The translations under genes and the position numbers were made by a program. This document shows positions 11,207 to 62,548 of a stretch of 64,000 bases of DNA, piece after piece. This stretch comes from Sphingobacteriales bacterium (GTDB taxonomy: Bacteria > Bacteroidota > Bacteroidia > UKL13-3). Each line of letters starts with the position of its first letter. Position 1 is the stretch's first letter. Location: positions 1 to 64,000 of the forward strand of contig JAJTEN010000004.1 in NCBI GenBank assembly GCA_021298155.1, in the 5' to 3' direction. The notes under the pieces were generated by a model. The model did no database searches. It was not told the origin of the DNA and was given only the letters and a program-made list of their open reading frames with translations.

Positions 11207-11222
11207 ATTGGTTCAGACCAAA
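11207..11222 (+). repeat. TTGGTTCA-family motif, left member of a 16-bp inverted pair
   Basis: ATTGGTTCAGACCAAA lies 5 bases after the secDF stop codon and directly before its terminator. The identical 16-mer, inverted, lies at 12307-12322 just after the next gene. The core is itself an imperfect palindrome (TTGGTnnnnACCAA). Confidence 0.7.
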
Positions 11223-11224
11223 AC

Positions 11225-11261
11225 AAAAAAGGCCCTATCTATAGCAGATAGGGCCTTTTTT
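11225..11261 (+). terminator. Rho-independent terminator of secDF
   Basis: A 10-bp perfect GC-rich stem (GGCCCTATCT paired with AGATAGGGCC) has a 5-base loop. It is preceded by six A and followed by six T, so it can act in both directions. It lies 23 bases after the secDF stop codon. Confidence 0.93.
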
Positions 11262-11364
11262 GTTTGCATAACTGAACAATAGGCATGGGCATGCGCATAA
11301 CATTAGGCTTAAAAAGTTGACGAATCACTTAGAGTTAAGCAACTTCGCAGAAACCCATTACAGC

Positions 11365-12306
11365 ATGAAAAAACTATTAGCCATTTCATTTTTGCTTTTT
11401 GGCAGCATGGCCATAGCACAAAATCTTGAACCAAAAGGTAAAATAAAGGATCCAAAAAAAATTACAGAGAAAGTGCATAACGTGCTATTATCAAAACGCA
11501 TGACAACCGCAACCAATCAGCGAGATTCTTTACATTTATTAACCATTGCCTATCATAAAGATACTACCGAAAGAGGCATTCAATACCGTGATTTAGATTC
11601 ACGTTTTAATGAACTCACAAATAAATTTAATAACCTAGAGGAAAAGCATAAAAAACTAGACCAAGATTATGCGGATATGAATCAAAAATATACCGATCTA
11701 ATACGCTCTAGTTTAAATAAAACAGAACAGCTGAATTTAGCGCTTAAAGAAAAGGGAGAGCAATTACTCGAAAGAGAAAGGAAATTAGCTGTATTAGAAG
11801 CCCTAATCAAAGAGCAAGATTCTATAACAAATGCCTTAAATAATGTGATTAAAAAGGCTTTATTGAGCTTTAAAAGCGATGAGATTTCTGTTGAAATGAA
11901 AAATGGAAAAGTATATGTGTCTATGAGCGACAAACTACTTTTCAAAAGTGGTAGCGCAGAAGTGGAAGAAAAGGGTTTAGATGCCTTAAAAAAATTGGCA
12001 GAGGTGCTGAATAAAAATAAAGATGTAGGTGTTATGATCGAAGGTCACACAGATAATATTCCTATTAAAACGGCTCAATTTAAAGACAACTGGGATTTAA
12101 GTGTTGCCCGTGCAACCAATATTGTGCGTATGTTAGATGAAGTACACCAAGTAGATGCCAAAAATTTAACCGCAGCTGGAAGAGGCGAATACATGCCTAA
12201 AGCAAGCAATGAAACGGCTGAAGGTAGAGCCAAAAACCGCCGAACAGAGATTATTTTGAGTCCGAAATTAGACGAGCTTTACAAACTCATTAACAAAAAT
12301 AAATAA
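11365..12306 (+). CDS. OmpA-family peptidoglycan-binding protein with coiled coil
   Basis: Exported envelope protein, probably anchoring to peptidoglycan. From the ATG at 11365 it has 313 residues. An upstream in-frame TTG at 11317 is rejected because it would bury the clean signal peptide MKKLLAISFLLFGSMAIA. After the signal peptide, about residues 60-165 form a charged coiled coil (FNNLEEKHKKLDQDYADMNQKY and following). The C-terminal OmpA domain is at about 180-300: VSMSDKLLFKSGSAEV, IEGHTDNIPIK and the NRRTEI end motif, with the Asp and Arg that bind diaminopimelate. There is no beta-barrel domain. It is transcribed alone between two inverted TTGGTTCA motifs. Confidence 0.9.
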   Translation: MKKLLAISFLLFGSMAIAQNLEPKGKIKDPKKITEKVHNVLLSKRMTTATNQRDSLHLLTIAYHKDTTERGIQYRDLDSRFNELTNKFNNLEEKHKKLDQDYADMNQKYTDLIRSSLNKTEQLNLALKEKGEQLLERERKLAVLEALIKEQDSITNALNNVIKKALLSFKSDEISVEMKNGKVYVSMSDKLLFKSGSAEVEEKGLDALKKLAEVLNKNKDVGVMIEGHTDNIPIKTAQFKDNWDLSVARATNIVRMLDEVHQVDAKNLTAAGRGEYMPKASNETAEGRAKNRRTEIILSPKLDELYKLINKNK

Positions 12307-12322
12307 TTTGGTCTGAACCAAT
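12307..12322 (-). repeat. TTGGTTCA-family motif, right member of the 16-bp inverted pair
   Basis: The reverse complement reads ATTGGTTCAGACCAAA, identical over 16 bases to the copy at 11207-11222. It starts at the base after the OmpA-family stop codon and ends 2 bases before the stop codon of the convergent small gene. Confidence 0.7.
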
Positions 12323-12324
12323 AT

Positions 12325-12474: not shown

Positions 12475-12518
12475 CTCACAAAGTTAGTTAGAATACTGAA
12501 ATGCTAAGAAACAAAATA

Positions 12519-14960
12519 CTAAGCTTCCTGCTCCTTTTTCTTTCTGTAAAAGCTTAAACCCAATACCAATAGTAAACCACCATACAGTAACCATGAAGAA
12601 GCATAGGCAATCTTTTCGCCTGTTCCAATAACAGTGGGTTCAAACTTAAATTCAATGGTATGACTTCCAGCAGGAACCTGCAAAGCACGCAACACATAGT
12701 TCACCCTTACATGTGGAACCAATTTACCATCTATATAAGCATTCCAACCTTTTTCATAATAAATCTCTGAAAAAACAGCCAATTGATCTGTGCTACTTTG
12801 GCTCGTATAGTCTAATTTATTAGGTTGATATTTAGTTAATGAAATACGCGCACTGCTATCGCGATTTGGCACAAATCCCTTAAATTCTCCTTCAAAACGT
12901 TTGTCTATTATTGCAGTTTGCTTACTATTAAATTTACTCAAGGCCACGATTTCTTCATCTGCATTGGCTACCCAATTTATTTCTGAAACAAACCAAGCAT
13001 TTCCATTGGCATTTACATTTTGTTGGGCAAATTTATTTCCTGTAGAATCTTGTAAAATAAAATATTTAGCATTTAACATATTGTAACACTCCATATTCAT
13101 CTTAACCAATTGCCATTCAATTAACTCTTGGTATCTGCGCATTTTGGCTCCATGGTAACCACCTAAAGACTTATGGTAATAGGCAGTTAATGCATCTTTA
13201 TCAAAGTCTGTAGTGTTATTATATACACGGTAATGTGGATCTGGATCGGCTAAAATTTGCTCGTCTACTGGTGTTTTCTGCACAGCTGCCTCACCTTTTT
13301 TCTTTTCAAAATCTTTATCATTTAAATAGCGTTTATCTACGCCCCATAAATCTACTACTACCAGAATACCAAGAATGGCCATCATTAATTCTGACTTCAA
13401 TTTCCCTTTTTGATAAAACCAAAGCACCGCTGCAGCCAATAAAATTAACACCAAAGACCTAAATGCATCTGCGCGCAACAAACTCTCTCTATCTGCAGTT
13501 AATGCACTTAATAGCCATTCTGGCAACTTCATACGGGCATCATTCTCAGTAGAAAAGTCGAAAAAGAATCCAGGAATTAAGGCAAACAACAAACATATTC
13601 CACCAACTATACCTAAGCTAAATTTAAGCGACCTCATCCAATCGGCTTGTTTTAATTTTTTATCCATTACTTCTTTTACTGCCAACATAGCCAAAAATGG
13701 AAACATCGTTTGAGCCACACACAGCACAAAAGTTACTGATCTAAACTTATTATAAAGCGGGAAATAATTGAAAAACAAATCGGTAAGTGGCATAAAGTTT
13801 TTGCCCATAGACAAGAAAATAGAGAGCATTGCCGCAGTAAAAATCCACCATTTGGCCTGGTTTTTTACCAAAAACATTCCCAATACAAATAAGAAAACAA
13901 TGATTGCTCCATAGTAAATCGGACCAGCGGTAAATGGCTGATCACCCCAATAAATAGGCATTTGTTTTACCACCTCTTTGGCATTTGGAACTTGTTGGCG
14001 TTGTAATTCTTTAAAGGTATTACTGCTTGTTCCCAAATCGCCATTACTAGCCCCACCATAAAAGTTCGGAACCAAAATGGTAAAAGGTTCAACCACCCCG
14101 TTGCTCCATGCCAAGGCATAATCCTTATCTAATCCTGAAGAGCTATTGGCTGCATTGCTTTCGCCACTTTGGGTTTTGGTTAATTCAGATTGTCCACGAA
14201 TACTGTATTTACCATATTCTTCAGTGGCTAATAATCCTGTGATATTGGTTCCAATTCCAACGGCTGCAGAAACAGCTAATAAAGCTCCTGCAACAATAAA
14301 TTTTGGCAATGTTTTATTTTTAACGGCTTGAACCAATTCTACAATCATCCAAGCCAAGATGATAAAAATTAGGTAATAGGTTATTTGTACGTGTCCAGCA
14401 GATAATTCGAATGAAACGGCAATCCCCGTAATTACTGCACCTAACCATTTATTTTTATGTAAGGTAATTTGTATACCTGCCAAAACAAGCGGTATAAATG
14501 CAATAGCATTCCCTTTGGTAACATGTCCAGCATCTATATTTATGAAATTAAAAGAGGAAAGGGCAAAGGCCAATGACCCGATCATAGCCAGCCAAGGTGA
14601 TACTTCAAAAGCTATGAGTAACACATAAAAACAGGCAAACAATAAAAAAATGGTATCTGCTGGGTGCTTAAAAATATCTGAAATATAATATAAAATATTA
14701 CCTGTATAATTTCCATGGTAGGTAGCTCCAATTAAGTAACTTGGCATTCCAGCAAAAATGCTATTTGTCCAAAAAGTACGCTCACCACTCGCTTTTTCAA
14801 ATTGGGCAATTTCTTGAAAAGTAGCTTTCCATTGCAAAACATCGTATTGTTTCAATACTTTACCATTGAACAAGGGAGTAAAATAAGCGAAGATAACCAA
14901 CATAATAAGCACAAAAGCAAGTAGGTGCGGCAAGGCTTTCTTAAAAGGCGATGAATTCAT
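12519..14960 (-). CDS. YfhO-family multispan membrane protein
   Basis: Large integral membrane protein of 813 residues, resembling YfhO, a family with a GT-C/PMT-like membrane fold. YfhO members in Firmicutes take part in sugar modification of envelope polymers; the Bacteroidota role is not established. An N-terminal helix (HLLAFVLIMLVIFAYFTPL) is followed by about a dozen hydrophobic segments to residue 560. Then comes a soluble C-terminal domain with YHKSLGGYHGAKMRRYQELIEW and NMLNAKYFI, motifs I associate with the family. A final helix and the basic tail FYRKKKEQEA end it. It starts downstream of the RNR terminator, so it is probably transcribed separately. Confidence 0.8.
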   Translation of the reverse strand: MNSSPFKKALPHLLAFVLIMLVIFAYFTPLFNGKVLKQYDVLQWKATFQEIAQFEKASGERTFWTNSIFAGMPSYLIGATYHGNYTGNILYYISDIFKHPADTIFLLFACFYVLLIAFEVSPWLAMIGSLAFALSSFNFINIDAGHVTKGNAIAFIPLVLAGIQITLHKNKWLGAVITGIAVSFELSAGHVQITYYLIFIILAWMIVELVQAVKNKTLPKFIVAGALLAVSAAVGIGTNITGLLATEEYGKYSIRGQSELTKTQSGESNAANSSSGLDKDYALAWSNGVVEPFTILVPNFYGGASNGDLGTSSNTFKELQRQQVPNAKEVVKQMPIYWGDQPFTAGPIYYGAIIVFLFVLGMFLVKNQAKWWIFTAAMLSIFLSMGKNFMPLTDLFFNYFPLYNKFRSVTFVLCVAQTMFPFLAMLAVKEVMDKKLKQADWMRSLKFSLGIVGGICLLFALIPGFFFDFSTENDARMKLPEWLLSALTADRESLLRADAFRSLVLILLAAAVLWFYQKGKLKSELMMAILGILVVVDLWGVDKRYLNDKDFEKKKGEAAVQKTPVDEQILADPDPHYRVYNNTTDFDKDALTAYYHKSLGGYHGAKMRRYQELIEWQLVKMNMECYNMLNAKYFILQDSTGNKFAQQNVNANGNAWFVSEINWVANADEEIVALSKFNSKQTAIIDKRFEGEFKGFVPNRDSSARISLTKYQPNKLDYTSQSSTDQLAVFSEIYYEKGWNAYIDGKLVPHVRVNYVLRALQVPAGSHTIEFKFEPTVIGTGEKIAYASSWLLYGGLLLVLGLSFYRKKKEQEA

Positions 14961-15022
14961 ATTTCAGTAATTTGAGGGCACAATATAAATAAAAAACTAA
15001 TGAGAGTATTCATGTGGAAATT

Positions 15023-15036
15023 TTGGTTCAAACCAA
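15023..15036 (+). repeat. TTGGTTCA-family motif beside the nrdJ terminator
   Basis: TTGGTTCAAACCAA lies between nrdJ and the yfhO-like gene. It directly abuts the A-rich foot of the nrdJ terminator, an arrangement like that at secDF and rplY. Confidence 0.7.
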
Positions 15037-15076
15037 AACCAAAAAAACCTGCCGAAGCAGGTTTTTTTGGTTTTAT
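15037..15076 (-). terminator. Terminator after nrdJ
   Basis: The stem AACCTGC / GCAGGTT with loop CGAA is extended by A-rich and T-rich flanks (seven A, seven T and further ACCAAA/TTTGGT pairing), so it can work in both directions. It lies 34 bases after the nrdJ stop codon on the minus strand. Confidence 0.85.
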
Positions 15077-15109
15077 ATTTTGATTACCCAAAAGGGGAAA
15101 GCCTAACGA

Positions 15110-18100: not shown

Positions 18101-18499
18101 AGCGTACTGACCAACAATCATGTAAGCCATTTCATCATAGAACACTTGGGCATCTTCTTTACTATCGAAATAACCGTAATCTTCTCCCCATTTCATCCAG
18201 CAATGCGCCATACGGTGAGCAACCTGCTTTATACTGGTCTCTCTTCCCGAAGTGCCATCAGGTTGTGGCACACCTGCTTTTCTAAAATACTTTTGAGCCA
18301 ATACGTCTGTAGCAACCTGACTCCAAAAATTTGGAACTTCTACATCTTTCATTTCAAACACCACACTACCGTTAGTGTTCTTGATAACAGAAGTGCGATA
18401 ATCGTACGTAAACATATCGTACGCGCTTACTCCTTCTTTAGTAAAATGGCGCTCTACCCGGAGGCCTTTTTGTTCTTGATTTTTTTTGTTGCGGCTCAT
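15110..18499 (-). CDS. nrdJ: Adenosylcobalamin-dependent (class II) ribonucleotide reductase
   Basis: Reduces ribonucleotides to deoxyribonucleotides using a B12-derived radical, without a separate radical subunit and independent of oxygen. Its 1129 residues match the long NrdJ type. Visible landmarks are [12 protein letters not shown] near 215, the core with [20 protein letters not shown] near 390, the loop [20 protein letters not shown] near 595, and a long extension. The extension ends in a cysteine-rich C-terminus ([16 protein letters not shown]) that combines a zinc-ribbon-like region with redox cysteines. The cell must make or import cobalamin, and no such genes are in this window. I found no cobalamin riboswitch or clear NrdR box upstream. 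Confidence 0.95.
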
Positions 18500-20334: not shown

Positions 20335-21702
20335 TTAGCCAAATAAAAATTGCAATAATTCGTCTATTTTAGATACTTCCACAATTTTAATGGCAAAATT
20401 TGTTTTAGGTAGTTTATTAAACTTGGAAATATAAATGGTTTTGAAACCAAGTTTTTCTGCTTCAGATATCCGCTGTTCAATCCTGCTAACAGCCCTTATT
20501 TCTCCGCTAAGTCCGAGCTCACCTACAAAACAAATCTTAGAATCAATAGGCATGCTTTCAAAGCTAGAAACAATAGAAGCAACAATACTCAAATCTATGC
20601 CTGGATCTTCTACCCGCAATCCTCCCGCAATATTGATAAAAACATCTTGAGTACCCATTCGCAGTCCACATTTCTTTTCTAATATGGCCAAAATCATATT
20701 TAATCTTTTGGCATCATAGCCATTGGAGTTACGCTGTGGTGTTCCATAAACAGCAGCACTAACTAAGGCCTGGGTTTCTATTAATAGCGGACGCATACCC
20801 TCGAGAGTGGCTGCAATACAAACACCACTTAAGGCCTCTTCTCTTTGTGAAATTAATATTTCGGAAGGATTGCTTACCTCGCGTAAACCTCCTTGTTGCA
20901 TCTCGTATATTCCTATTTCATTGGTTGAACCAAATCTATTTTTAGTACTCCTTAAAATGCGATACACATGGTGCCTGTCCCCTTCAAATTGTAGCACCGT
21001 ATCAACCATGTGTTCTAACAGCTTTGGTCCAGCCAATGTGCCATCTTTCGTAATATGACCAATTAAAAAAATGGGGGTATTGGTTTCTTTCGCAAACCTA
21101 ATCATATCGCCCGCAGTTTCTTTAACCTGAGAAATGCTACCTGGTGTGCTATCCATTAGGTCTGATTGCAAGGTTTGAATTGAATCTACAACTACCAAAT
21201 CTGGCTGCAATTCCTTTAATGCTTTTCCTATCTTTTGTGTAGATGTTTCAGTATATAAATAGCAATGATTATTTTGAAAAGGAATTCGCTCAGCACGCAT
21301 TTTAATTTGGCTCTCACTTTCTTCTCCACTAATATAAAGAACCTTAAATGCAGAAAATTGTAAAGCCATTTGTAATAGCAAAGTAGATTTACCTATGCCA
21401 GGCTCACCTCCTATTAGCACCACACTTCCCGGAACCAATCCACCGCCCAACACCCGAGATAACTCTTGATCTACAAGTGGTATTCTTTGCTCTGTTCCAA
21501 TAGTCACCTCAGAAATTTCTATAGGTTTTTTACTTCCAACAATTCCTTCCGCTTTCCAAGTGCTTTTATAGTCTAATTTTTCTTTGTGAACAATTTCTTC
21601 TACGTAAGAATTCCATTCGCCGCAGGCCGGACATTTACCAATCCATTTGGCGGCAGATGCCCCACAATTTTTGCAAAAGAAAGTAGCATGAGTTTTGGCC
21701 AT
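20335..21702 (-). CDS. radA: DNA repair protein RadA
   Basis: ATP-driven branch-migration factor of homologous recombination. The 455 residues start at ATG 21702; the TTG three codons earlier is rejected. It opens with a zinc finger, CKNCG...CPACGEW. A RecA-like ATPase follows, with Walker A GEPGIGKST near 90 and Walker B LVVVDSIQ near 165. The RadA signature KNRFG is near 250. The C-terminal Lon-protease-like domain covers about 280-455 (AGGLRVEDPGIDLSIVASI and GELGLSGEIRAV). It is divergent from the polyprenyl synthase gene, with a gap of about 52 bases. Confidence 0.96.
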   Translation of the reverse strand: MAKTHATFFCKNCGASAAKWIGKCPACGEWNSYVEEIVHKEKLDYKSTWKAEGIVGSKKPIEISEVTIGTEQRIPLVDQELSRVLGGGLVPGSVVLIGGEPGIGKSTLLLQMALQFSAFKVLYISGEESESQIKMRAERIPFQNNHCYLYTETSTQKIGKALKELQPDLVVVDSIQTLQSDLMDSTPGSISQVKETAGDMIRFAKETNTPIFLIGHITKDGTLAGPKLLEHMVDTVLQFEGDRHHVYRILRSTKNRFGSTNEIGIYEMQQGGLREVSNPSEILISQREEALSGVCIAATLEGMRPLLIETQALVSAAVYGTPQRNSNGYDAKRLNMILAILEKKCGLRMGTQDVFINIAGGLRVEDPGIDLSIVASIVSSFESMPIDSKICFVGELGLSGEIRAVSRIEQRISEAEKLGFKTIYISKFNKLPKTNFAIKIVEVSKIDELLQFLFG

Positions 21703-21754: not shown

Positions 21755-22726
21755 GTGAGTAAACTTAATCAGATAAAACTACCGATACAACAGGAGCTAA
21801 ATTTGTTTGAAACCAAATTTAGGGCATCCATGAAAAGTAGTGTTCCATTGCTTGATACTATAATGAATTATATCATCAAGCGAAAAGGAAAGCAGATTAG
21901 ACCCATTTTTGTTTTTTTTAGTGCCAAACTGTTCAACGGAATTACAGATGCAACCTATAGAGCGGCAAGTTTAGTTGAGCTCTTGCATACCGCTACTTTG
22001 GTTCACGATGATGTGGTAGATGATAGCGATGAACGAAGAGGATTTTTTTCCATAAATGCCCTCTGGAAAAATAAAATTGCTGTACTCGTTGGTGATTATT
22101 TGTTAAGCAGAGGCTTATTACTTTCGGTTCAAAATAAAGACTTTCAACTATTGGAAATTGTGAGCTTTGCCGTGAAAGAAATGAGCGAAGGAGAATTGCT
22201 TCAAATAGAAAAAACAAGAAACCTAAACTTATCGGAAGCAGTTTATTATGATATTATACGTAAAAAAACTGCCTCACTTATTGCATCGTGCTGCGCTATT
22301 GGCGCTGCCTCTGCCGGCGCAAATACTGAACAAATCGAACAAATGCGCTTATTTGGTGAAAAAATTGGCATTGCCTTCCAAATGAAAGATGATTTACTAG
22401 ATTATGGAGATGAAGATATTGGTAAACCTAGAGGAATAGACTTAAAAGAAAAAAAACTCACCCTACCTATTATTTATACCTTAAATCAGGCCGAACCAAA
22501 GGTTAAAAGTAGGATTATTAATACCATAAAAAACCACCACAACGACAAGAAAAAAGTGGCAGAGGTAATAGATTATGTGAATGCACATCAGGGCATATCT
22601 TATACCAAAACCGCAATGAAAAAATATGTGTCAGAGGCCATCGAAATTATTGATAAACTGCCAGACAACCCTTACAAAGAGAATGTTAAGGAACTAGTAA
22701 ATTTTATAATAGATAGAAACCACTAA
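21755..22726 (+). CDS. ispB: Polyprenyl (octaprenyl-type) diphosphate synthase
   Basis: Trans-prenyltransferase that extends isoprenoid diphosphates, most likely for the menaquinone side chain. It has 323 residues. The first aspartate-rich motif is LVHDDVVDDSDERRG near residues 85-99 and the second is FQMKDDLLDYGDE near 205-217. KRKGKQIRP near 42-50 is the substrate-binding segment. The start is a GTG at 21755 (MSKLNQIKLP), which fits family N-termini. Chain length cannot be read with certainty, so the gene symbol is provisional. Confidence 0.88.
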   Translation: MSKLNQIKLPIQQELNLFETKFRASMKSSVPLLDTIMNYIIKRKGKQIRPIFVFFSAKLFNGITDATYRAASLVELLHTATLVHDDVVDDSDERRGFFSINALWKNKIAVLVGDYLLSRGLLLSVQNKDFQLLEIVSFAVKEMSEGELLQIEKTRNLNLSEAVYYDIIRKKTASLIASCCAIGAASAGANTEQIEQMRLFGEKIGIAFQMKDDLLDYGDEDIGKPRGIDLKEKKLTLPIIYTLNQAEPKVKSRIINTIKNHHNDKKKVAEVIDYVNAHQGISYTKTAMKKYVSEAIEIIDKLPDNPYKENVKELVNFIIDRNH

Positions 22727-27969: not shown

Positions 27970-29268
27970 ATGAATCGCATCAGCATCGGAATTCTTAGCC
28001 TTATTCTTTGGTTTCATGCTAAACAACTAATTGCTCAAGATGTAGCATATGCCAGGGCATGTATCAAAACATTATGCAGCGAAGAATTCTTTGGCAGAGG
28101 GTATGTGCAAAATGGCGATAAAATAGCCGCAAATTTTATTCGCCAAGAATTTGTAAAAAATAAGCTTATTCCACTTGGTGATAAATATTTTCAAAATCTT
28201 GGTTTTCCTGTAATTTACTATCCAAATGAAGTAAGTATTCGTTTAGATGATCAACTTGTTTTTGCAGGAAACGACTACATCTTAAACCCCGGATGCCCAA
28301 GTATTAAAGGCAGCTACAAGATTTTAGTGATTGATTCTGCAATGGTTGATAACACCAATGAATTCAATAAAATCAAAGCGCTAAACTTAAAGAATTATTT
28401 TTTGGTGCTAGATGACCTAAAGGGAAAAACATTTAAATACCCCGAGCGCGCAGCGCAATTTTTAAAAAATACACTCCATGCAAAGGGACAAATTTATAAA
28501 AATAATACGAGCTTAGTTTGGAGCGTAGCTATGGAATTTGCACCCTATCCAATTATTTATTTCAAAACAGGAACATTCCCAAACCTAGTTTTAAAAATGG
28601 ATATTCAGGTGGATGCTTCACATAAAGTTCATGGCACGCAAAATGTATTGGGGTATATTAAAGGCTCGGTTCAGCCCGATTCTTTTATAGTATTTACAGC
28701 GCATTACGACCATTTAGGTAAAATGGGAAATGATGCCATTTTCCCCGGAGCAAACGACAATGCAAGTGGCGTTGCTATGATGCTCGATATGGCAAAATAT
28801 TATGCAAAAAACCCACCTCCATACTCGGTAGCCTTTATTGCATTTGCAGGTGAAGAAATTGGTTTAGTTGGTTCTTATTATTTTGTTGAAAATCCACTTA
28901 TTCCGCTCGAAAAAATTAGCCTACTCTTAAATATGGATTTAATGTCGACTGGCGACGAAGGGCTCACAGCAGTGAATGCAACAGAATTCCCATTCTTATT
29001 TGAACAACTACAGTTGTGTAATTTGGCAGGCCAATACCTACCAAATATTGCTCCAAGAGGTAAATCAGCAAATAGTGATCATCATTATTTTACTGAGGCT
29101 GGAGTTCCTTCTTTTTTCTTTTATTTAAGAGGAAAGTACCACCACTATCATGATGTAGAGGATACCTATGAAGCACTTACCATGAGCAAGTATACCGAAG
29201 CGTTTAAACTGCTTATAGATTTTGCCGATTGGCGCATGAGCCACTACCTTACCAAAAACAAAAAATAA
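27970..29268 (+). CDS. Secreted M28-family zinc peptidase
   Basis: Exported metallo-aminopeptidase-type enzyme of 432 residues. The signal peptide covers about 1-22 (LWFHAKQLIAQ). Zinc ligands fit the M28 pattern: TAHYDHLG near residue 248, GANDNASGVAMML near 263, AGEEIGLVGS near 297, MDLMSTGD near 325 and a late His in SDHHYF near 375. No sorting domain is present, so it is probably periplasmic. It follows pssA by 28 bases. Confidence 0.88.
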   Translation: MNRISIGILSLILWFHAKQLIAQDVAYARACIKTLCSEEFFGRGYVQNGDKIAANFIRQEFVKNKLIPLGDKYFQNLGFPVIYYPNEVSIRLDDQLVFAGNDYILNPGCPSIKGSYKILVIDSAMVDNTNEFNKIKALNLKNYFLVLDDLKGKTFKYPERAAQFLKNTLHAKGQIYKNNTSLVWSVAMEFAPYPIIYFKTGTFPNLVLKMDIQVDASHKVHGTQNVLGYIKGSVQPDSFIVFTAHYDHLGKMGNDAIFPGANDNASGVAMMLDMAKYYAKNPPPYSVAFIAFAGEEIGLVGSYYFVENPLIPLEKISLLLNMDLMSTGDEGLTAVNATEFPFLFEQLQLCNLAGQYLPNIAPRGKSANSDHHYFTEAGVPSFFFYLRGKYHHYHDVEDTYEALTMSKYTEAFKLLIDFADWRMSHYLTKNKK

Positions 29269-32058: not shown

Positions 32059-33387
32059 ATGAAAAAAATTTTAGTGCTAGGTGCAGGTTTGTCTTCGGCA
32101 TACCTAATAAAATATTTATTACAACATGCTTCAAAAGAAAAATGGGAAGTTATTGTAGCTGATGCCAATCTTGCATTAGCCAAAGATAAAATAGGTAAAA
32201 GCAAATTTGGTTCGGCCATTAGTCTAGATATAACCAATGAAAAAGATCGCAAAGCCTGGATAGCAAAAGCAAGTATAGTTGTATCTCTTTTACCTCCAAG
32301 CTTGCATGTGTTAGCAGCAAAAGACTGCCTTCAATTTAAAAAAAACTTGGTCACCGCTTCTTACCTCAGCGATGAAATGAAAGCCATGCACGAGGCAGCC
32401 ACTCATGCAAATGTTTTGTTTTTAAATGAAATTGGATTAGACCCCGGAATAGACCATTTATCTGCCATGAAAATGATTCATGAAATCCAAGACGCAGGTG
32501 GAATCATTCAAACTTTTGAATCGTATTGCGGGGGATTAGTTGCCCCAAAATTTGATGATAATCCGTGGCAATATAAATTTACTTGGAATCCGAAGAATGT
32601 AGTACTAGCAGGTCAAGCTACTGCTTGCTATAAACACGATGGCTCCCTTAAATTCATTCCTCCAAACCGAATTTTTAAGCAAATTAATCAGGTAAAAATA
32701 AGCAATAAGGAAAAGTTTGATGCGTATGCCAATCGCGATTCACTCAGCTATATTGAACCCTATGGCATTGGTTCGGCACAAACAGTTTTAAGGGGTACAT
32801 TGCGGAGAAAAGGATTCTGTGAGGCATGGAATTGCCTGGTAAAACTTGGCTTAACAGACGATTCATACACCCTCCCAAAATCAGAAAACTTAAGCTATAG
32901 AGACCTGGTAGCTGCATATTTAAATCAAAAAGATACAGATACAGAAACGGCCTTAGCCAATTTCTTAGGCATAAAAAAATCAAGTTCAGTTTTTAAAAAA
33001 ATAGCTTGGCTCGGACTACTACAACCGAATAAAATAGGTATTCCTCAGGCAACACCGGCTCAAGCATTGCAAAAACTATTACAAGAAAAATGGAAACTAC
33101 AGCCAAATGAATTAGACCAAATTGTTATGCTACATAAGATTTCTTATACGCAAAATAAACGTACATTTAACTTGCAATCTCACCTGGTAGTTACTGGTGA
33201 AAGTCAGAAGTACACCGCTATGGCAAAAACGGTTGGACTCCCAATGGCCATCGCCTGCAAACTAATTTTGAATAATAAAATTAAAGCCAAAGGGGTACAA
33301 ATACCCATTACTAAAGAGTTTTATGAACCTATTTTAAAAGAACTTAAACACTTCGATATTGCTTTTAAAGAAAAACTGTCGAAATAA
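32059..33387 (+). CDS. Saccharopine dehydrogenase family protein (Lys9-like)
   Basis: NAD(P)-dependent enzyme resembling saccharopine dehydrogenase (L-glutamate-forming), which acts in lysine catabolism. It has 442 residues. The N-terminal Rossmann fold has ILVLGAGLSSAYL at 4-16 and an acidic strand end VADAN near 34. The family segment NEIGLDPGIDHLSAMKMI is near 131-148 and ESYCGGLVAP near 161. The saccharopine C-terminal domain follows. It lies 12 bases after the lytic transglycosylase, and no other lysine catabolic gene is adjacent. The call to Lys9-type is good, but the substrate is unproven. Confidence 0.85.
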   Translation: MKKILVLGAGLSSAYLIKYLLQHASKEKWEVIVADANLALAKDKIGKSKFGSAISLDITNEKDRKAWIAKASIVVSLLPPSLHVLAAKDCLQFKKNLVTASYLSDEMKAMHEAATHANVLFLNEIGLDPGIDHLSAMKMIHEIQDAGGIIQTFESYCGGLVAPKFDDNPWQYKFTWNPKNVVLAGQATACYKHDGSLKFIPPNRIFKQINQVKISNKEKFDAYANRDSLSYIEPYGIGSAQTVLRGTLRRKGFCEAWNCLVKLGLTDDSYTLPKSENLSYRDLVAAYLNQKDTDTETALANFLGIKKSSSVFKKIAWLGLLQPNKIGIPQATPAQALQKLLQEKWKLQPNELDQIVMLHKISYTQNKRTFNLQSHLVVTGESQKYTAMAKTVGLPMAIACKLILNNKIKAKGVQIPITKEFYEPILKELKHFDIAFKEKLSK

Positions 33388-33389: not shown

Positions 33390-34118
33390 TTATTGATCTA
33401 TTCGCAAATAAAAGTCCTTACTCAACTGAATATAGGCCTCACTCGGATTAGCATTTTCATCTTTTAAAGTCAATTCGGTTTGAACCAAGTTGCCTTTATC
33501 GAATTGATACACTTGCACCAATCTATTGGCTGGCTTCCCTACCCTTGGTATTATTGCTATTTCATGGGTAACATGTAACCCATGATGAACAGCTTCAGTT
33601 GCAAAAACATGCGCCTCTTGAATGGGCAGAATTAAACAAAAACTTCCACTTTGGTTCAAAAGCAATGCGCTATATTTTGCCAAATCTGAGAAAGAAAGTG
33701 AAACATCTTGCCTAGCCATACTTCTGGCATTATTCGCAATAGTTATATTCTTACCTTGCTCAAAAAAAGGTGGATTACTTACAATTAAATCAAACTTCTC
33801 TTTCGTATGGTTTCCAAATTTTTGCAAAGATGTTGGCACGCAATTTAATCGTGCGGCATACATAGAATTTTCAAAGTTGAATTGTGCTTGTTGTGCTGCC
33901 AATTCATCTATTTCTAGCGCTGTTATGCATGCATCTACGCAGCGCTGCGCCAATAGCAGGGAAATCACTCCTGAACCAGTTCCAATATCTAAAATAGCTT
34001 TTGTTTGCGGGAGCAAAGGAGCCAAACAGCCCAAAACAACTGCATCTGTTCCTACTTTCATGGCTACTTGATTGTGCCATACCCTGAACTTTTTAAAATC
34101 AAAATACGCTGAAGCCAA
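33390..34118 (-). CDS. trmN6: tRNA1(Val) (adenine(37)-N6)-methyltransferase TrmN6
   Basis: N6-methylates A37 of tRNA-Val. It has 242 residues. The SAM motif I is ILDIGTGSGVISLLLAQR at about 42-59, an acidic motif is in ALEIDELA, and the amino-methyltransferase motif is IVSNPPFFEQG near 111-121 (NPPF). The family opening KVGTDAVVLG is near 21-30. The best start is TTG at 34118, since no ATG precedes MKVGTD. It converges on the saccharopine dehydrogenase gene with 2 bases between stops, and a TTGGTTCA motif lies in its coding region at 33481. Confidence 0.87.
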   Translation of the reverse strand: MASAYFDFKKFRVWHNQVAMKVGTDAVVLGCLAPLLPQTKAILDIGTGSGVISLLLAQRCVDACITALEIDELAAQQAQFNFENSMYAARLNCVPTSLQKFGNHTKEKFDLIVSNPPFFEQGKNITIANNARSMARQDVSLSFSDLAKYSALLLNQSGSFCLILPIQEAHVFATEAVHHGLHVTHEIAIIPRVGKPANRLVQVYQFDKGNLVQTELTLKDENANPSEAYIQLSKDFYLRIDQ

Positions 34119-41857: not shown

Positions 41858-42681
41858 CAAATTCTCCTTATTTTTCTTTGCTGAACCAAAGATTGGTACT
41901 TGACAGGGAAATAGGTTCGCAACATTAGCTTGTACAATAAAACAAAAGGATTGGCTTTAAACTTTTCTGCCAGGGCATTGGCTGATGCATCAAAATCCAA
42001 ATAGCTTGCATGTTTCTTTTCTATATAAAATCTTAACTCGTTAAAATTAGGACCCGTATCTTTTTTTATCATCGATTGATTGGCTACTCTGTAATAATAA
42101 CTCGGTTCAGCCAGGTGATAAAACTTGTGCCCATGAAAAGATAGGTTCAGCCAGAACTCCCAATCCTCTACTCCCATGTAGGGCATATTTTCGTCGTATC
42201 CGCCTACTTGTTCCCAGGCAGATTTGCGGTACAAAGCACAGGCATCAATGTAATTACCTGTCATTAACCTTTGCAAATTATAATCTGAAACTGGAGCCAA
42301 TCCCTGTTTATCTCCAAACAAAATTGGGTCGCCATAAACAACAGAAATCCGACTGTTTGCCTCTAATATTTCAATTCCTTTTTCAAGGTATACAGGTAGT
42401 ATTTTATTATCTGCATCCAAAGGCAAAATATATTTGCCACTTGCCTGTTTAATGCCATTATTGCGTGTTTTACCCAGTCCTTGGTTTACTTGATTGATAA
42501 CATAAAATCCCTCTTCACTCAATTGCTTTAAAACCGAAATAGTATGTGCATCGGTAGAACCATCGTTTACAATGATTATTTCTATTTCTTCTCTGTTAGG
42601 GTATGAAATACTCTCAAGTGCTTCCCGAATAAAAGCGCCATGATTGTAACATGGTATGATGATGGATACTAACTTTTGCAT
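41857..42681 (-). CDS. Glycosyltransferase family 2
   Basis: Inverting GT-A glycosyltransferase of 274 residues. It opens VSIIIPCYNHGAFIREALESI and has IIVNDGSTD near 36-44, NNGIKQASGKYILPLDADN near 74-92 (the D-x-D-like metal site), and the acceptor region GVEDWEFWLNLSFHGHKF near 168-185 (ED motif). It builds a surface glycan; donor and acceptor are unknown. It overlaps the upstream methyltransferase stop by one base and the downstream gene by TGATG. Confidence 0.92.
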   Translation of the reverse strand: MQKLVSIIIPCYNHGAFIREALESISYPNREEIEIIIVNDGSTDAHTISVLKQLSEEGFYVINQVNQGLGKTRNNGIKQASGKYILPLDADNKILPVYLEKGIEILEANSRISVVYGDPILFGDKQGLAPVSDYNLQRLMTGNYIDACALYRKSAWEQVGGYDENMPYMGVEDWEFWLNLSFHGHKFYHLAEPSYYYRVANQSMIKKDTGPNFNELRFYIEKKHASYLDFDASANALAEKFKANPFVLLYKLMLRTYFPVKYQSLVQQRKIRRI

Positions 42682-45736: not shown

Positions 45737-45803
45737 CTAAACCTTTCTTTAGAAAGAACATTTACTAACAATCACCTCAGGGTGAGCAACATAAAATAAT
45801 CTT

Positions 45804-46751
45804 ATGGCGGTTAAAAACGAAGTAAAGATTTTCTCAGGTACACGATCTAAGTACTTGGCAGAAGAAATAGCAAAAGCATACGGAACTTCATTGGGAGATT
45901 GCACAATCTCTTATTTCAGTGATGGAGAATTCCAACCGAGCTTTAATGAGTCGGTTCGTGGCTGTGATGTATTTTTAATTCAAAGTACTTTTGCCAACAC
46001 AGATAATTTAATGGAGCTATTGCTCATGATTGATGCAGCCAAAAGAGCTTCAGCCCATTATATCACCGCCGTAATTCCATATTTTGGTATGGCTCGACAA
46101 GATAGAAAAGACAAACCACGTGTTTCTATAGGATCAAAAGTAGTGGCAGACATGCTAACTGTAGCAGGAGCAAGCAGAGTAATCACCATGGATTTACATG
46201 CGCCACAAATTCAAGGTTTTTTTGAAGTTCCAGTTGATCACTTAGATCCAGCCGTTATCTTTTTACCTTACATGCGCAGCTTAAATATGGGAAGCAACAT
46301 TATTATTGCCTCACCAGATATGGGCTCAAGCGCAAGAGCTAGAACCTATGCCAAAGCTTTAGGCTGCGATATGGTCATTGTAGACAAAGAGCGCCGCAGA
46401 GCGAATGAAATTGCATCTATGACCCTTATTGGTGATGTGGCAGGAAAAGATGTACTCATGGTAGATGACATCATTGATACCGGTAACACCCTCGCTAAAG
46501 CTGCACAATTATTAAAAGATAAAGGTGCATTAAGCGTAAGAGCAATGTGTACTCACCCCGTATTAAGCGGAAAAGCATACGAAAATATTGAGCAAAGTGT
46601 ACTTGATGAATTGGTTGTATGTAATACCATCCCTTTGGTTCGAACCGATTCTAAAATAAAAGTTTTGTCTGCTGCCCAACTATTTGCAGATGCCATTCGT
46701 AACATCACCGAACATGGCTCTATTAGCAGCTTGTTTGATTTAAACGCCTAA
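45804..46751 (+). CDS. prs: Ribose-phosphate pyrophosphokinase
   Basis: Makes PRPP from ribose 5-phosphate and ATP for nucleotide, His and Trp synthesis. It has 315 residues, standard length. Landmarks are the flexible-loop and ATP-site segment YFSDGEFQPSFNES near 33-46, MDLHAPQIQGFFEVP near 128-142 (metal-binding His), DKERRRANEI near 193, and the PRPP-binding loop VDDIIDTGNTLAKAA near 218-232. It is followed by rplY after 76 bases, an arrangement common in bacteria. Confidence 0.97.
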   Translation: MAVKNEVKIFSGTRSKYLAEEIAKAYGTSLGDCTISYFSDGEFQPSFNESVRGCDVFLIQSTFANTDNLMELLLMIDAAKRASAHYITAVIPYFGMARQDRKDKPRVSIGSKVVADMLTVAGASRVITMDLHAPQIQGFFEVPVDHLDPAVIFLPYMRSLNMGSNIIIASPDMGSSARARTYAKALGCDMVIVDKERRRANEIASMTLIGDVAGKDVLMVDDIIDTGNTLAKAAQLLKDKGALSVRAMCTHPVLSGKAYENIEQSVLDELVVCNTIPLVRTDSKIKVLSAAQLFADAIRNITEHGSISSLFDLNA

Positions 46752-46757
46752 ACTTTA

Positions 46758-46785
46758 TTGGTTCAAACCTACATGCTTAGGTTTG
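46758..46785 (+). repeat. TTGGTTCA motif fused to an 8-bp hairpin between prs and rplY
   Basis: TTGGTTCAAACC (46758-46769) overlaps the perfect inverted repeat CAAACCTA / TAGGTTTG (46764-46771 and 46778-46785, loop CATGCT). No strong T-tract follows directly (CGCCGCTATTTTT), so this is at most a weak terminator or a processing hairpin. Confidence 0.65.
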
Positions 46786-46827: not shown

Positions 46828-47427
46828 ATGAAATCAGTAGCATTATTTGGATACGCCAGAACAGAAGTAGGCAAAGTATCTACCAAAGCACTCAGAACTG
46901 AAGGAAAAGTTCCTTGTGTAATGTATGGTGGTAAAAACCACATTCATTTCTCAATTTTTGAACCAGATTTTAAATTATTGGTATACACACCAAACACCTA
47001 TAAAGTAAAATTAGATATTGATGGTACTACCTATAAATGTATCCTAAAAGATATCAGCTTTCACCCAGTAAACGATTCAATTTTACATGCCGATTTCTTG
47101 GAAATTGAAGATAATAAACCAGTAGAAATTGGGGTGCCTGTAAAATTAGTAGGTAATTCTGTAGGTGTTCGTGCGGGTGGTAAATTAGTTGTTAAAGCCA
47201 AGAAATTAAGAGTGAAAGCTTTACCAATGTTATTACCAGACTTTATCGAAATCAATATTGATCACTTAGAAATTGGTAAGTCAATTAAGGTTGGTGACTT
47301 AGCAAGTATTGAAAATATTACCTTGTTAGATTCTCCAAATAACCCAGTTGTTAGTGTTAACACAACCCGTGCGGTAATGGAAGCTGCTAAGGCAAACGAA
47401 AAAGAAACCGGAAAGAAGAAAAAATAA
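46828..47427 (+). CDS. rplY: 50S ribosomal protein L25 (long CTC/TL5 form)
   Basis: Binds 5S rRNA in the large ribosomal subunit. It has 199 residues. The N-terminal L25 domain (about 1-90) has GKVPCVMYGGKNHIHFSI, and the C-terminal TL5 beta domain (about 95-185) has VPVKLVGNSVGVRAGGKLV. It ends in a Lys-rich tail (KEKETGKKKK-like). It follows prs and ends at a good terminator. Confidence 0.95.
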   Translation: MKSVALFGYARTEVGKVSTKALRTEGKVPCVMYGGKNHIHFSIFEPDFKLLVYTPNTYKVKLDIDGTTYKCILKDISFHPVNDSILHADFLEIEDNKPVEIGVPVKLVGNSVGVRAGGKLVVKAKKLRVKALPMLLPDFIEINIDHLEIGKSIKVGDLASIENITLLDSPNNPVVSVNTTRAVMEAAKANEKETGKKKK

Positions 47428-47440
47428 TTGGTTCAAAACC
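47428..47440 (+). repeat. TTGGTTCA-family motif after rplY
   Basis: TTGGTTCAAAACC starts at the base after the rplY stop codon and about 10 bases before the terminator stem region. Here the inner spacing is one base longer than in the other copies. Confidence 0.65.
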
Positions 47441-47448
47441 ATTTATAC

Positions 47449-58589: not shown

Positions 58590-58604
58590 AATTTAATATA
58601 CACA

Positions 58605-59435: not shown

Positions 59436-59437
59436 TT

Positions 59438-60289
59438 ATGATTAAGTATTTGTTGTTTGCAACCGCTCTTGCATTTGCTGCTCCTAGCATGGCACAAGAC
59501 AAGCCTGCTAAAAGCAAAAAAGGCCAATCTAAAAAAGAATCAAATAACCCTAAAAGAAATAGTAAATTGAACGAAGAAATCACTACAGCATCCGGACTCA
59601 AATACAAGGTAACTGAGTTCGGTTCAGGCCGAAAAGTAGAAATTGGAGATAAAGTAAGTGTGCATTACACTGGTAAATTAACCAATGGAACTAAATTTGA
59701 TAGCTCTAAAGATAGAAACCAACCTTTCAGTTTTAAAGTGGGAGGTGGCCAAGTAATTAGAGGATGGGATGAAGGCTTAGCCCTGTTAAATATTGGAGAT
59801 AAAGCTACTTTAACTATACCTGCGAACCTAGGTTATGGTAGCAGAGATCAAGGTCCAATTCCTGCCAATAGTACACTTATTTTTGATATTGAGGTATTAG
59901 ATGCAACAACACCGGTAAAGGCTGCTCCATATGATGTAAAAGGGAAAGACACCTTAACAACAGCAAGCGGATTAAAATACATCATTGTTAAAAAAGGCGA
60001 TGGCGCAAAAGCAGAAAACGGAAAAACAGTTGATGTTCATTATACTGGCTATTTAATGGATGGTAGAACTTTTGATTCTTCTGTTGAAAGAGGAGAACCT
60101 ATTAGTTTCCCTCTAGGTCAAGGTATGGTTATTAAAGGTTGGGAAGAAGGTATTGCCTTAATGCATGTAGGCGATAAAATGCGTATCATTATCCCTAGCG
60201 AACTGGGTTATGGTGCCAATGGAGCTGGCGGAGTTATCCCACCAAATGCTACCCTTATTTTTGATGTAGAACTAATGAATGTAAAATAA
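59438..60289 (+). CDS. Tandem-domain FKBP-type peptidyl-prolyl isomerase
   Basis: Exported isomerase of 283 residues with a signal peptide ending APSMAQ and a Lys-rich linker (about 21-45). Two complete FKBP domains follow: about 62-152 ([34 protein letters not shown]) and about 190-282 ([34 protein letters not shown]). Core active-site Tyr, Asp, Phe and Trp positions are kept in both. It is most likely periplasmic, as no lipobox is present. The transcript ends at the hairpin at 60311. Confidence 0.93.
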
Positions 60290-60310
60290 TTCGATTATAT
60301 ATCGTCTGAG

Positions 60311-60357
60311 AATCCATCAAATGGCTTGGTTTGAACCAACTCATTTGGTGGATTTTT
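60311..60357. terminator. Bidirectional terminator with a TTGGTTCA motif in its loop
   Basis: The outer stem AATCCATCAAATG / CATTTGGTGGATT is 13 bp with one G-T pair and is followed by six T. The inner part holds TTGGTTTGAACCAA, itself able to fold into a 6-bp stem. It lies between the convergent FKBP and ppx genes, touching the ppx stop codon. Confidence 0.85.
60326..60339 (-). repeat. TTGGTTCA-family motif inside a terminator loop
   Basis: The plus strand reads TTGGTTTGAACCAA and the minus strand TTGGTTCAAACCAA, the same 14-mer as at 15023-15036. It forms the inner stem of the terminator at 60311-60357. Confidence 0.7.
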
Positions 60358-61241
60358 TATTTAGTATAGAATTTTTTGAAAAGCACCTGCAGCATCCCAT
60401 CTTTGAGTCCGCTATTGTCTGGACTTAATATCGTGTTGATATTGGCCCAATTTAAGATTCGCAGGTAAATATCAGCTGAAACATCAATAATATCTGCCCT
60501 ATCCATATTTAACTTATACTTTTCTACACGTTCTTGCAAAGACATTTTACTTACCTTTCTATGAAAATCTTTCAGCTCTTTTCGTGTGATAGATTTAAGT
60601 AATTGGTCGGGATGTAATAAACCCAATATCTTATTAATGGTTCCACTGGTAACCACAGCCTCCAAATCTGTAAGTCCAGCTGTTTTATGTTGAACCCAAT
60701 GTTCTATAGTTTGCCAGGTTTTTTCTGAAACAGCTCCATCCATTAAACGCACAGTTCCAATATCAAATGATACAGAATTGATAATTTTTTGATTGGAAAT
60801 AATGGTCATTTCAGTAGAACCACCTCCCACATCAATGGTCAGATAATTTTTATTCGGTTCAAAAAGATGAAGTATTGAAGCCAAGATAAGCTCACTTTCA
60901 TTTTTACCGCTAATGATGTGAATATTTAAGCCTAATTCATCTGATACTTTTTTAATGATTTTTTTTCCATTTTTAGCCTCACGCATAGCACTTGTGGCGC
61001 AGGCCATATAATGATCTACCTCAAAAGCACGTAATAAAGCATCAAAAGAAGTCATTGCTAGCATAAACAGCTTACGTTTTTCTTTGCTAATCCATTGTTC
61101 TTTAAATGCATCATCGCCCAAACGAATTGGAATTCGTACAAATTCTAATTTCTTAAAACGCTCTGCTGAACCAGACTCATTTACCTTTACAATTTGCAGA
61201 CGAACCGCGTTTGAACCAATATCTATGGCAGCTAGTTTCAT
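60357..61241 (-). CDS. Ppx/GppA phosphatase family protein
   Basis: Exopolyphosphatase or pppGpp phosphohydrolase of the ASKHA fold. It has 294 residues, the short form lacking the C-terminal HD-like domain. ATP/phosphate-binding motifs are AAIDIGSNAVRLQI at 4-17, CATSAMREAKNG near 81-92 (catalytic-side Glu region) and LTIDVGGGSTEMTII near 134-148. GTVRLMDG near 162 is also typical. Polyphosphate versus alarmone specificity cannot be told. It lies 3 bases after the acyltransferase-like gene. Confidence 0.9.
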   Translation of the reverse strand: MKLAAIDIGSNAVRLQIVKVNESGSAERFKKLEFVRIPIRLGDDAFKEQWISKEKRKLFMLAMTSFDALLRAFEVDHYMACATSAMREAKNGKKIIKKVSDELGLNIHIISGKNESELILASILHLFEPNKNYLTIDVGGGSTEMTIISNQKIINSVSFDIGTVRLMDGAVSEKTWQTIEHWVQHKTAGLTDLEAVVTSGTINKILGLLHPDQLLKSITRKELKDFHRKVSKMSLQERVEKYKLNMDRADIIDVSADIYLRILNWANINTILSPDNSGLKDGMLQVLFKKFYTK

Positions 61242-61244
61242 GTA

Positions 61245-62156
61245 TTAATTTTTAAATATTCGCAAAAGCCAGGGTAATCGGTTGCGTTTATATCTGTAAT
61301 AATTTCTTTTTTCTGCTCCAAAACTTTTGAAAAAACGAGCAATACCCTCAATTTCAGAACCCTCAAAATCAAGAACCATCCGGTGTTCTGCAAATAAAAA
61401 AATGATATTATCCATGAGGTAGGTCATTGCACCCTTTTCTTTTCCAAGTTCAGAACCATTCCCCAATAAAAAAATAATTCTGTTTTTGTGCGCCAAAAAA
61501 GCTCCAGCAGCAAGTAATTCACCCGATTTATCAAATACACCCTTACAAAATATTTTTTGATGTTCTGATGCCTTTTCCATCAATAGCTGTAAACGTTGGT
61601 AATCTGAATCTTTTACCCCTTTTGTACTTAATGCTTTATGTAATTTGTAAAATAATATTGTTTCAGCATTACCAATACTCTGAATTTGTAGTTCATATTT
61701 CTTGGCCTTTTTCAAATTACGTTTGATTTGAGTAGCATAATCTTTGGCTAATTTTTCATACGACTTTGCTAAATCTAAAACATAATTACGCCTTTTACGC
61801 AATTTTAACCTTGGGTTTAATACCTGGTTTTGTTCATTGAGTTGTATATCTATGAACCTGAATTTTTTTGGAATGGCTGAAAGAAAGTTTTGCAGCAAAT
61901 CTTGTGTCAATACCTGCTTACCAAAAACACCTAATTGTTGCGTAAAAAAAGGCTGACTTAAATAATGAATGAAGTACTTACGGTGAGCGGTAAGGGGCAT
62001 CACCGCAAGATAATCATCCAAAATTAAAGCTTCCCAATTGGGTGAAGCAATATTTAAATACCAACTATAAGCATATACCAAACCATTAGGAGATTGTTCA
62101 ATACAGAGATCCCATTTGGCTTGATCTATTTCTGCATGGCTTAAGTAGCGTACCAA
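61245..62156 (-). CDS. GNAT/FemAB-like putative acyltransferase
   Basis: Its 303 residues have no signal peptide or membrane helix. The pattern of an N-terminal region with a WYLNIASPNWEALILDD-like strand, a basic helix TQIKRNLKKAKKYEL near 143-157, and FYKLHKALSTKGVKD followed by GVFDKSGELLAAGAFLAHKNRIIFLLGNGSE suggests the double-GNAT fold of FemAB-type transferases. The substrate is unknown. The start is a TTG at 62156, since the first ATG is about 68 codons later. It sits between the DUF3127 gene (8 bases) and ppx (3 bases). Confidence 0.65.
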   Translation of the reverse strand: MVRYLSHAEIDQAKWDLCIEQSPNGLVYAYSWYLNIASPNWEALILDDYLAVMPLTAHRKYFIHYLSQPFFTQQLGVFGKQVLTQDLLQNFLSAIPKKFRFIDIQLNEQNQVLNPRLKLRKRRNYVLDLAKSYEKLAKDYATQIKRNLKKAKKYELQIQSIGNAETILFYKLHKALSTKGVKDSDYQRLQLLMEKASEHQKIFCKGVFDKSGELLAAGAFLAHKNRIIFLLGNGSELGKEKGAMTYLMDNIIFLFAEHRMVLDFEGSEIEGIARFFKSFGAEKRNYYRYKRNRLPWLLRIFKN

Positions 62157-62164
62157 AGTATTTA

Positions 62165-62548
62165 CTAGAATGGTAAGTCGTCTGTACTGGTTTCTTGGTT
62201 GTACGATTCTGGCTCAGTATGATTCATTGGTTCATCTGAGATTCCGGCCTGACCAGAAGAAGCTCCACTTGAACCAACTGGTTCAATGCGCCATGCGTTA
62301 ATATTTGTAAACCATTTGCCTTGGTATTCGCGCGACTCAATGTTTAAAGAAACCTTTACCTCATTCCCAGGTACATACTTCTTTATTTCTTGAACCTTTT
62401 CACCCATTAAACCAATACATATTTTCTTTGGATAAGCCTCTTGTGTTTCCACAATAAATTCTTGTTTAACCCAGTCTTTTCCTGCCTTACTGGTTCCGGT
62501 AGTGCTTGGCAATATTTGAATAATTTTGCCTGTGATGTCTAAAGCCAT
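62165..62548 (-). CDS. DUF3127 OB-fold-like protein with SSB-type acidic tail
   Basis: It has 127 residues. The body (about 1-95) opens MALDITGKIIQILPSTTG and contains VKQEFIVETQEAYPKKICIGLMG and VKVSLNIESREYQGKWFTNINAWRIEP, the pattern of DUF3127 and of OB folds. A low-complexity Ser/Gly/Glu linker leads to the C-terminus DDLPF, which closely matches the tip of single-stranded DNA-binding protein (DDDIPF) that recruits repair proteins. A single-strand-binding or SSB-partner role is inference. It is the first gene of an operon with the acyltransferase-like and ppx genes. Confidence 0.82.
   Translation of the reverse strand: MALDITGKIIQILPSTTGTSKAGKDWVKQEFIVETQEAYPKKICIGLMGEKVQEIKKYVPGNEVKVSLNIESREYQGKWFTNINAWRIEPVGSSGASSGQAGISDEPMNHTEPESYNQETSTDDLPF

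Follow-up and report, generated by a model that had tools for sequence, protein, structure and literature searches.

Genome-wide tags that mark DNA for uptake have been described in two proteobacterial families, the Neisseriaceae (DUS) and the Pasteurellaceae (USS), both of which have type IV pili; the known tags are non-palindromic and are linked to those pili. The tag that we describe here resembles DUS and USS in many ways: it occurs about once per kb, on both strands and in genes as well as between them, it has a preferred orientation within genes, it has clade dialects, its excess goes beyond codon use, and it shows no replication polarity. Unlike them, it is a palindromic 16-mer, it is found in Bacteroidota that lack a type IV pilus, and its role in uptake is putative.

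Three other kinds of site are worth comparing. First, cyanobacterial HIP1 (GCGATCGC) is also a palindrome that is iterated genome-wide, including in coding sequence. HIP1 has been tied to methylases. In contrast, our tag is longer, degenerate, and more like a binding site, with dialects, and the two adenine-methylase families that we tested are not common to the genus. Second, sites of the Noc, SlmA, MatS, or parS type are similar in being palindromes of 12-16 bp that are read by dimers and are found chromosome-wide. However, those sites number in the tens per genome, while the tag has hundreds to thousands of copies, and nearly every genome of the genus has just one ParB-family copy. Third, Chi and KOPS are over-represented words of the size of the octamer by which the tag was noticed, but the tag is two-fold symmetric and has no replication-strand polarity.

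An over-represented octamer and its parent 16-mer

The octamer TTGGTTCA is the highest-ranked octamer of the window (the whole 64-kb stretch that was analyzed), with 30 exact copies (13 plus, 17 minus). We expected 4.3 copies from dinucleotide shuffles (0 of 100 shuffles reached 30) or 7.4 from a third-order Markov model. The initial annotation had called this octamer strongly over-represented, which is correct, and it was right about the large excess over its expected 2-3 copies, although that figure is somewhat low. Its count of 26 copies (12 plus, 14 minus) was too small; all 16 of its example coordinates are accurate, and one plus copy does lie in tRNA-Gln (at 45697).

The 16-mer TTYGGTTYRAACCRAA, which is degenerate and has two-fold symmetry, is the unit of the tag, and TTGGTTCA makes up one half of it. 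Octamers that lack the other half are near the background level, which rules out the octamer as the unit. The near-palindrome that had been taken for an intergenic extension of the octamer is in fact this unit, both within genes and between them. (For the 100-kb samples of genomes G003 and G015, the motif EM drifted, and its outcome was left out.) The sites in the window are:

11208..62277, strand. : span of all 30 exact copies of the half-site octamer TTGGTTCA
6298..6313, +: tag variant CTAGGTTCAGCCAAAT, intergenic, among the GGTTCAGCC relatives proposed earlier
11207..11222, +: tag ATTGGTTCAGACCAAA, intergenic, directly after the secDF stop codon
12307..12322, -: tag ATTGGTTCAGACCAAA, intergenic, directly after an OmpA-family gene
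14322..14337, -: tag in an 813-aa gene
15022..15037, +: tag TTTGGTTCAAACCAAA, intergenic, adjoins a terminator-like hairpin at 15035-15074
20919..20934, -: tag in radA/sms
22485..22500, -: tag in a polyprenyl diphosphate synthase gene
28665..28680, +: tag in a peptidase M28 gene
32206..32221, +: tag in gene 32059-33387
32767..32782, +: tag in gene 32059-33387
33474..33489, -: tag CTTGGTTCAAACCGAA in gene 33390-34118
36217..36232, -: tag ATTGGTTCAGACAGAA in a 1628-aa gene
39990..40005, -: tag ATTGGTTCGAGCCAAC in gene 39157-40035
42141..42156, +: tag variant ATAGGTTCAGCCAGAA in gene 41857-42681
46634..46649, +: full palindrome TTTGGTTCGAACCGAT in the ribose-phosphate pyrophosphokinase gene
46757..46772, +: tag ATTGGTTCAAACCTAC, intergenic, 3' of the ribose-phosphate pyrophosphokinase gene
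47427..47442, +: tag ATTGGTTCAAAACCAT, intergenic, right half weak
59618..59633, +: tag TTCGGTTCAGGCCGAA in an FKBP-type isomerase gene
60325..60340, -: tag GTTGGTTCAAACCAAG, intergenic, convergent genes on either side

The full palindrome at 46634..46649 does not contain the TTGGTTCA octamer and was therefore missed by the initial annotation. The shorter relatives GGTTCAGCC, which had been suggested to be degenerate copies, are indeed enriched (GGTTCAGC occurs 58 times versus 10.5 expected); the coordinates given for them were a few bases off. More generally, near-sites of the tag are enriched in a graded way, and enrichment depends log-linearly on the number of half-site matches, which is a graded, energy-like tolerance. 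The symmetry of the 16-mer includes a degenerate YR center and symmetric flanking Y/R positions.

Distribution across the genus and along the genome

Genome-wide, TTGGTTCA is in strong excess over a third-order Markov model. The source genome (2.5 Mb) has 1,021 copies, compared to 211 for the reversed control, and genome G014 has 2,719 copies, compared to 400. When counted by its 14-bp core, the palindrome is present in each of the 19 genus members (16-866 sites per genome), while just 0-7 sites occur in the genomes that we compared from the rest of the family (45) and from the class (about 380). The number of close matches per Mb varies by species, from a handful to more than 200, and most species of the genus have about one recognizable copy per kb. 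The tag is weak in the clade of G015 and G018 (4-5 palindromes per Mb). The dialects of the tag differ between clades and follow them, as do those of DUS in the Neisseriaceae (PMC3630211). The genus comprises uncultured freshwater Bacteroidota, and all 19 of its sequenced species are tagged.

Along the genome, tag spacing is random and Poisson-like (CV 0.95), across coding sequence and every class of intergenic region and on both strands. The initial annotation described clustering at the 3' ends of genes. This describes the window's six intergenic copies, which follow stop codons, but in general sites are spread evenly across the quintiles of genes. Sites are denser in intergenic DNA (3.5-fold in G014), and one site of the window abuts a terminator, as might be expected if the tag were an RNA-level or transcription-termination element that forms a hairpin at gene ends. 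Nevertheless, this is very unlikely: the majority of copies lie within genes, on both strands; divergent (promoter) intergenic regions are tagged as well; and sites in tandem intergenic gaps show no preferred orientation (19 sense and 25 antisense; 8 and 8). Also, when we scanned intergenic sites for terminators, just one adjoined a terminator-like hairpin and none was itself called as a terminator, so the association with terminators that had been proposed is unsupported as a general property. The tag does not show the pattern of an intrinsic terminator (a GC stem and then a run of T at the 3' ends of genes), and we reject it as a general explanation.

Within genes, one orientation of the tag is preferred, and the preference is equal in leading- and lagging-strand genes. 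A preferred orientation in genes has also been reported for USS and DUS (PMC2346458). The many copies genome-wide might suggest a mobile repeat (REP or MITE) or a polar recombination or segregation signal like Chi or KOPS, but we give these ideas hardly any credence. Tag sites have no similarity beyond the 16 bp, and 143 counted sites showed no indels between the related species G008 and G010; the lack of indel polymorphism or shared flanks largely rules out a REP or MITE repeat. Similarly, there is no replication-strand bias, and the lack of strand polarity along the replichores largely rules out Chi or KOPS.

Codons, proteins, and substitutions

The tag is maintained at the level of DNA. In two genomes, no other octamer exceeds synonymous-codon shuffles of the genes by as much as TTGGTTCA does. 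The initial annotation had allowed that codon and dipeptide usage might fully explain the enrichment; the strong excess over codon-shuffled genes does not bear this out. Of the 82 compatible LV[QH] peptides, 68 are encoded with TTGGTTCA, where 14% would be expected. Together, the synonymous shuffles and this choice of codons rule out codon or dipeptide usage as the cause. Furthermore, the tag is strong enough inside genes to set the amino acids of proteins: LVQT (27 observed versus 1.9 expected), LVQTE (11 versus 0.1), and RFEP (7 versus 0.5) are all in excess, while pooled outgroups have the expected number of LVQ (14 versus 14.8) and no LVQTE.

Comparisons between species show that the tag is gained and lost via point substitution and that it is conserved against synonymous and amino-acid pressure. 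Between G008 and G010, which are 92% identical, the substitution rate is 0.029 within sites and 0.088 in their flanks, and 82 of 85 synonymous codons in sites are unchanged (71.3 expected). At greater distance (G000 versus relatives, with identity of about 80%), only part of the 16-bp footprint is seen, with rates of 0.10-0.12 for the GG of the left half and 0.21 for the flanks. Tag sites have turned over between G014 and G008 or G010.

This turnover by point substitution, along with the graded enrichment of near-sites, is what would be expected if a mutation or repair bias, or a biased gene conversion apart from uptake, created the palindrome, for instance through an enzyme of short-patch repair or recombination that acts on near-sites. 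We consider this improbable because the footprint between G008 and G010 has sharp edges and two of its degenerate positions evolve at the flank rate, which looks like recognition. We know of no repair enzyme with so long a two-fold specificity.

Uptake signal or chromosome-binding site

The initial annotation compared the octamer to uptake signals and to other genome-wide tags such as HIP1. Although the octamer is not the unit, the comparison otherwise stands: the tag is restricted to a genus, is on both strands in coding and intergenic DNA, is maintained at the DNA level, and has dialects. We tentatively propose, by analogy, that the palindromic tag marks conspecific DNA as USS and DUS do, and that it may be spread by biased transfer via ComEC and DprA. 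A sequence-specific DNA-binding protein would read the 16-mer; this putative reader would be two-fold symmetric and is therefore probably a dimer. Natural transformation through ComEC and DprA would preferentially take up or recombine fragments with a good site, and alleles that create sites would therefore replace others, so that the tag would spread through molecular drive. We can only infer a role in uptake because we did not find the recognizer.

Every genome that we tested encodes ComEC and DprA. However, both proteins occur throughout the class and hence do not account for a tag that is confined to this genus. By reading the neighborhood of comEC (L174), we found no obvious candidate for a receptor gene. 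No PilB, PilT, Tad, or VirB11-type ATPase exceeds the family cut-off in the genus, except for a marginal partial match in G003, whose assembly is contaminated. Uptake would thus have to work without type IV or Tad pili, which appears possible by analogy to the transformation genes of another member of the Bacteroidota, Riemerella anatipestifer. Against a role in uptake, sites with two-fold symmetry are more typically bound by dimeric proteins of the cytoplasm.

The main rival to uptake is a HIP1-like palindrome or the site of a genus-specific nucleoid or chromosome-organizing protein, whose cytoplasmic dimer would coat about one site per kb with selection on each site. We view this as plausible but rather doubtful. 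The two-fold symmetry with its degenerate center and symmetric flanks, the log-linear enrichment (which resembles a binding energy), and the even spread across the genome all fit this explanation, and HIP1, whose function is likewise unknown, is another iterated palindrome (PMC4390886). On the other hand, this explanation requires selection on thousands of sites, at each of them strong enough to alter amino acids. As to the recognizer, we rejected extra ParB/Noc proteins because they are not genus-specific (almost every genome has a single copy of ParB), and likewise the adenine methylases PF01555 and PF02086, which are patchy and are missing from the source genome. If this rival holds, then the tag is an extreme genus-specific chromosome-binding site, which needs explanation just as much.

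Returning to uptake, a tag like an uptake signal would be the first in Bacteroidota that we are aware of. The initial annotation knew of no such motif in this phylum, and the open-licence literature that we searched gave none that was similar; among the matches listed for TTGGTTCA as plain text, all were unrelated. It is possible, although we would stop short of calling it probable, that this is the first uptake or self-recognition sequence of the Bacteroidota, palindromic and read by a receptor with two-fold symmetry in a form of transformation that needs no pilus, and that it has been rewriting the proteome of the genus. If so, self-marking arose independently, with a different recognizer, in Bacteroidota without pili, and the tag is a direct handle on how Bacteroidota bring DNA across the outer membrane. 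Finally, the exact 16-mer also occurs in 21 viral contigs of IMG/VR, with one match in each, which is about the level expected by chance.

The octamer and the symmetric site

No octamer is more strongly over-represented in the window than TTGGTTCA, which has 30 exact copies (13 plus, 17 minus), versus 4.3 expected from dinucleotide shuffles or 7.4 from a third-order Markov model. This bears out the over-representation claimed in the initial annotation, whose listed octamer coordinates were all correct. The source genome (G000; 2.5 Mb, 71 contigs) contains 487 forward and 534 reverse copies, versus 102 and 109 for the reversed control word. One copy does lie within a tRNA gene, as had been noted:

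45664-45737, tRNA-Gln(TTG); the anticodon arm is one octamer (45697), and the T-arm (45712) also matches the motif

The T-arm match is presumably chance because T-arms carry the consensus GGTTCRANNCC. Such tRNA copies are best excluded from octamer or motif counts.

For G014, a genome of the same genus, we searched 400 kb for motifs by EM against a third-order background. The search converged on TTYGGTTYRAACCRAA, a sequence that equals its reverse complement and has a variable YR centre. The result for G008 was the same, and G000 and G004 have a strong left half (TTTGGTTC) and a looser right half. Copies of TTGGTTCA with 0–1 of 6 right-half matches are near background (16 versus 16.7 expected in G014, 8 versus 8.3 in G004, and 22 versus 14.3 in G000), and enrichment rises roughly geometrically with right-half matches, to over 300-fold at 6/6. 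Thus, the octamer is not the unit, as first proposed, but a half-site viewed through a fixed word. The near-palindromic extension that the initial annotation described is real, but it is not restricted to intergenic copies: it is identical in sense, antisense, and intergenic copies. We will term the degenerate 16-bp site the tag.

Codon use and placement

Codon usage, which had been raised as a possible full explanation, is excluded as the cause, as TTGGTTCA ranks first among all octamers against synonymous-codon shuffles (168 versus 44.4 in G000 and 213 versus 51.3 in G014). In G014, GGTTCAAACC is present at 52–100% of the places where the peptide permits (1–3% expected). Translations of the tag are also enriched in the G014 proteome (LVQT, 27 versus 1.9 expected; LVQTE, 11 versus 0.1; RFEP, 7 versus 0.5), and this trend is repeated in G008, G010, G000, and G004. 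In pooled samples from seven outgroup genera, LVQ occurred 14 times (14.8 expected) and LVQTE was absent. The enriched peptides differ between the tag's several frames and strands, so the pressure acts on DNA.

Genes were called with a simple codon-score caller, and full reading covered about one fifth of the source genome and roughly 10% of each main relative. Spacing of PWM sites is Poisson-like (CV 0.95). A link to terminators and gene 3' ends had been suggested, and among the intergenic sites scanned in the window, a terminator-like hairpin does adjoin one, but just one; sites are even across gene quintiles and occur in tandem, convergent, and divergent gaps alike. Intergenic octamer density is raised 3.5-fold in G014 and 1.6-fold in G000. 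A Chi- or KOPS-like signal was ruled out because the sites have no replication-strand bias and because the preference for sense orientation inside genes is equal for leading- and lagging-strand genes.

Distribution and turnover

TYGGTTYRAACCRA has 112 sites in G000 and 16–866 in each of the 19 genomes of the genus (19/19), versus 0–7 in 45 genomes from elsewhere in the family and 0–6 in about 380 of the class (reversed control, at most 5). The genus marker was a gene in the window:

15110-18499, NrdJ, adenosylcobalamin-dependent ribonucleotide reductase

Every clade of the genus on the NrdJ tree carries the tag, with the highest density in G014 (211 per Mb) and the lowest in G015/G018 (4–5 per Mb). 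The G015/G018 clade has possibly lost the tag or uses a different dialect. (Across whole genomes, its octamer exceeds the reversed control about 8- to 15-fold, despite 4–5 palindromes per Mb; relative to Markov, in a 100-kb sample, the excess is only about 2-fold.) The dialect of G014/G008 is TTTGGTTCAAACCGAA; those of G000/G004 are TTTGGTTCAG.CC and TTTGGTTCGAACCRA. The named relatives are MAGs throughout, and records of related loci are uncultured Bacteroidota MAGs, several with pond names; we read the isolate names as indicating a mainly freshwater habitat.

G008 and G010 are 91.8% identical. Taking each genome in turn (shared sites are counted twice), 143 site observations included no indels, and the substitution rate was 0.029 within the 16 bp, versus 0.088 in the flanks and 0.075 in column-permuted control sites. 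The rate drops at the site's first base and is at background by the last base and beyond; two tolerant positions evolve at the flank rate. Where the amino acid was kept, octamer codons were unchanged in 82 of 85 cases, versus the 71.3 predicted by how these codons behave outside the octamer (z = 3.2). Between G000 and its relatives, which overlap and are not fully independent, the figure was 66 of 79, versus 47.8 (z = 4.4). Between G014 and G008/G010 (about 72% identity), sites have turned over. So, the tag is maintained in the short term and turned over in the long term by substitution.

Possible mechanism

Because the site is two-fold symmetric with graded tolerance, its sequence points to a dimeric DNA-binding protein as the reader. 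Selection on individual sites would not easily account for pressure that is felt at hundreds to thousands of them and is strong enough to dictate amino acids. Preferential transfer of tag-bearing DNA, which is the favoured explanation for DUS (PMC3630211) and which we propose here as well, would yield such pressure at that many sites. The main rival explanation is a chromosome-coating protein or a HIP1-like function. We infer uptake, a receptor, and competence in the genus. ComEC and DprA are found throughout it, and no PilB/PilT/Tad ATPase was found in it. Riemerella anatipestifer, also of the Bacteroidota, requires ComEC, DprA, ComF, and RecA, as well as four proteins without counterparts in known machinery, and an outer-membrane route has been proposed for it (PMC8459023). 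Our searches of an open-licence literature library turned up no description of an uptake sequence in Bacteroidota.

A second, weaker over-represented word, RGTCCGG/TNGTCCG, occurs in G000 (window and samples L040–L059; GTCCGG, 73 versus 19.9) and G004 (samples L138–L153; TAGTCCGG, 12 versus 0.7). It is weak in G014/G008, and no palindromic extension of it was found. G021, from a different genus of the same family, has clusters of AGTRRTCAGT(AA), short tandem-like repeats that are apparently unrelated to the tag:

L181, 17787-17849, cluster
L182, 3344-15829, cluster
L183, 1345-1412, cluster
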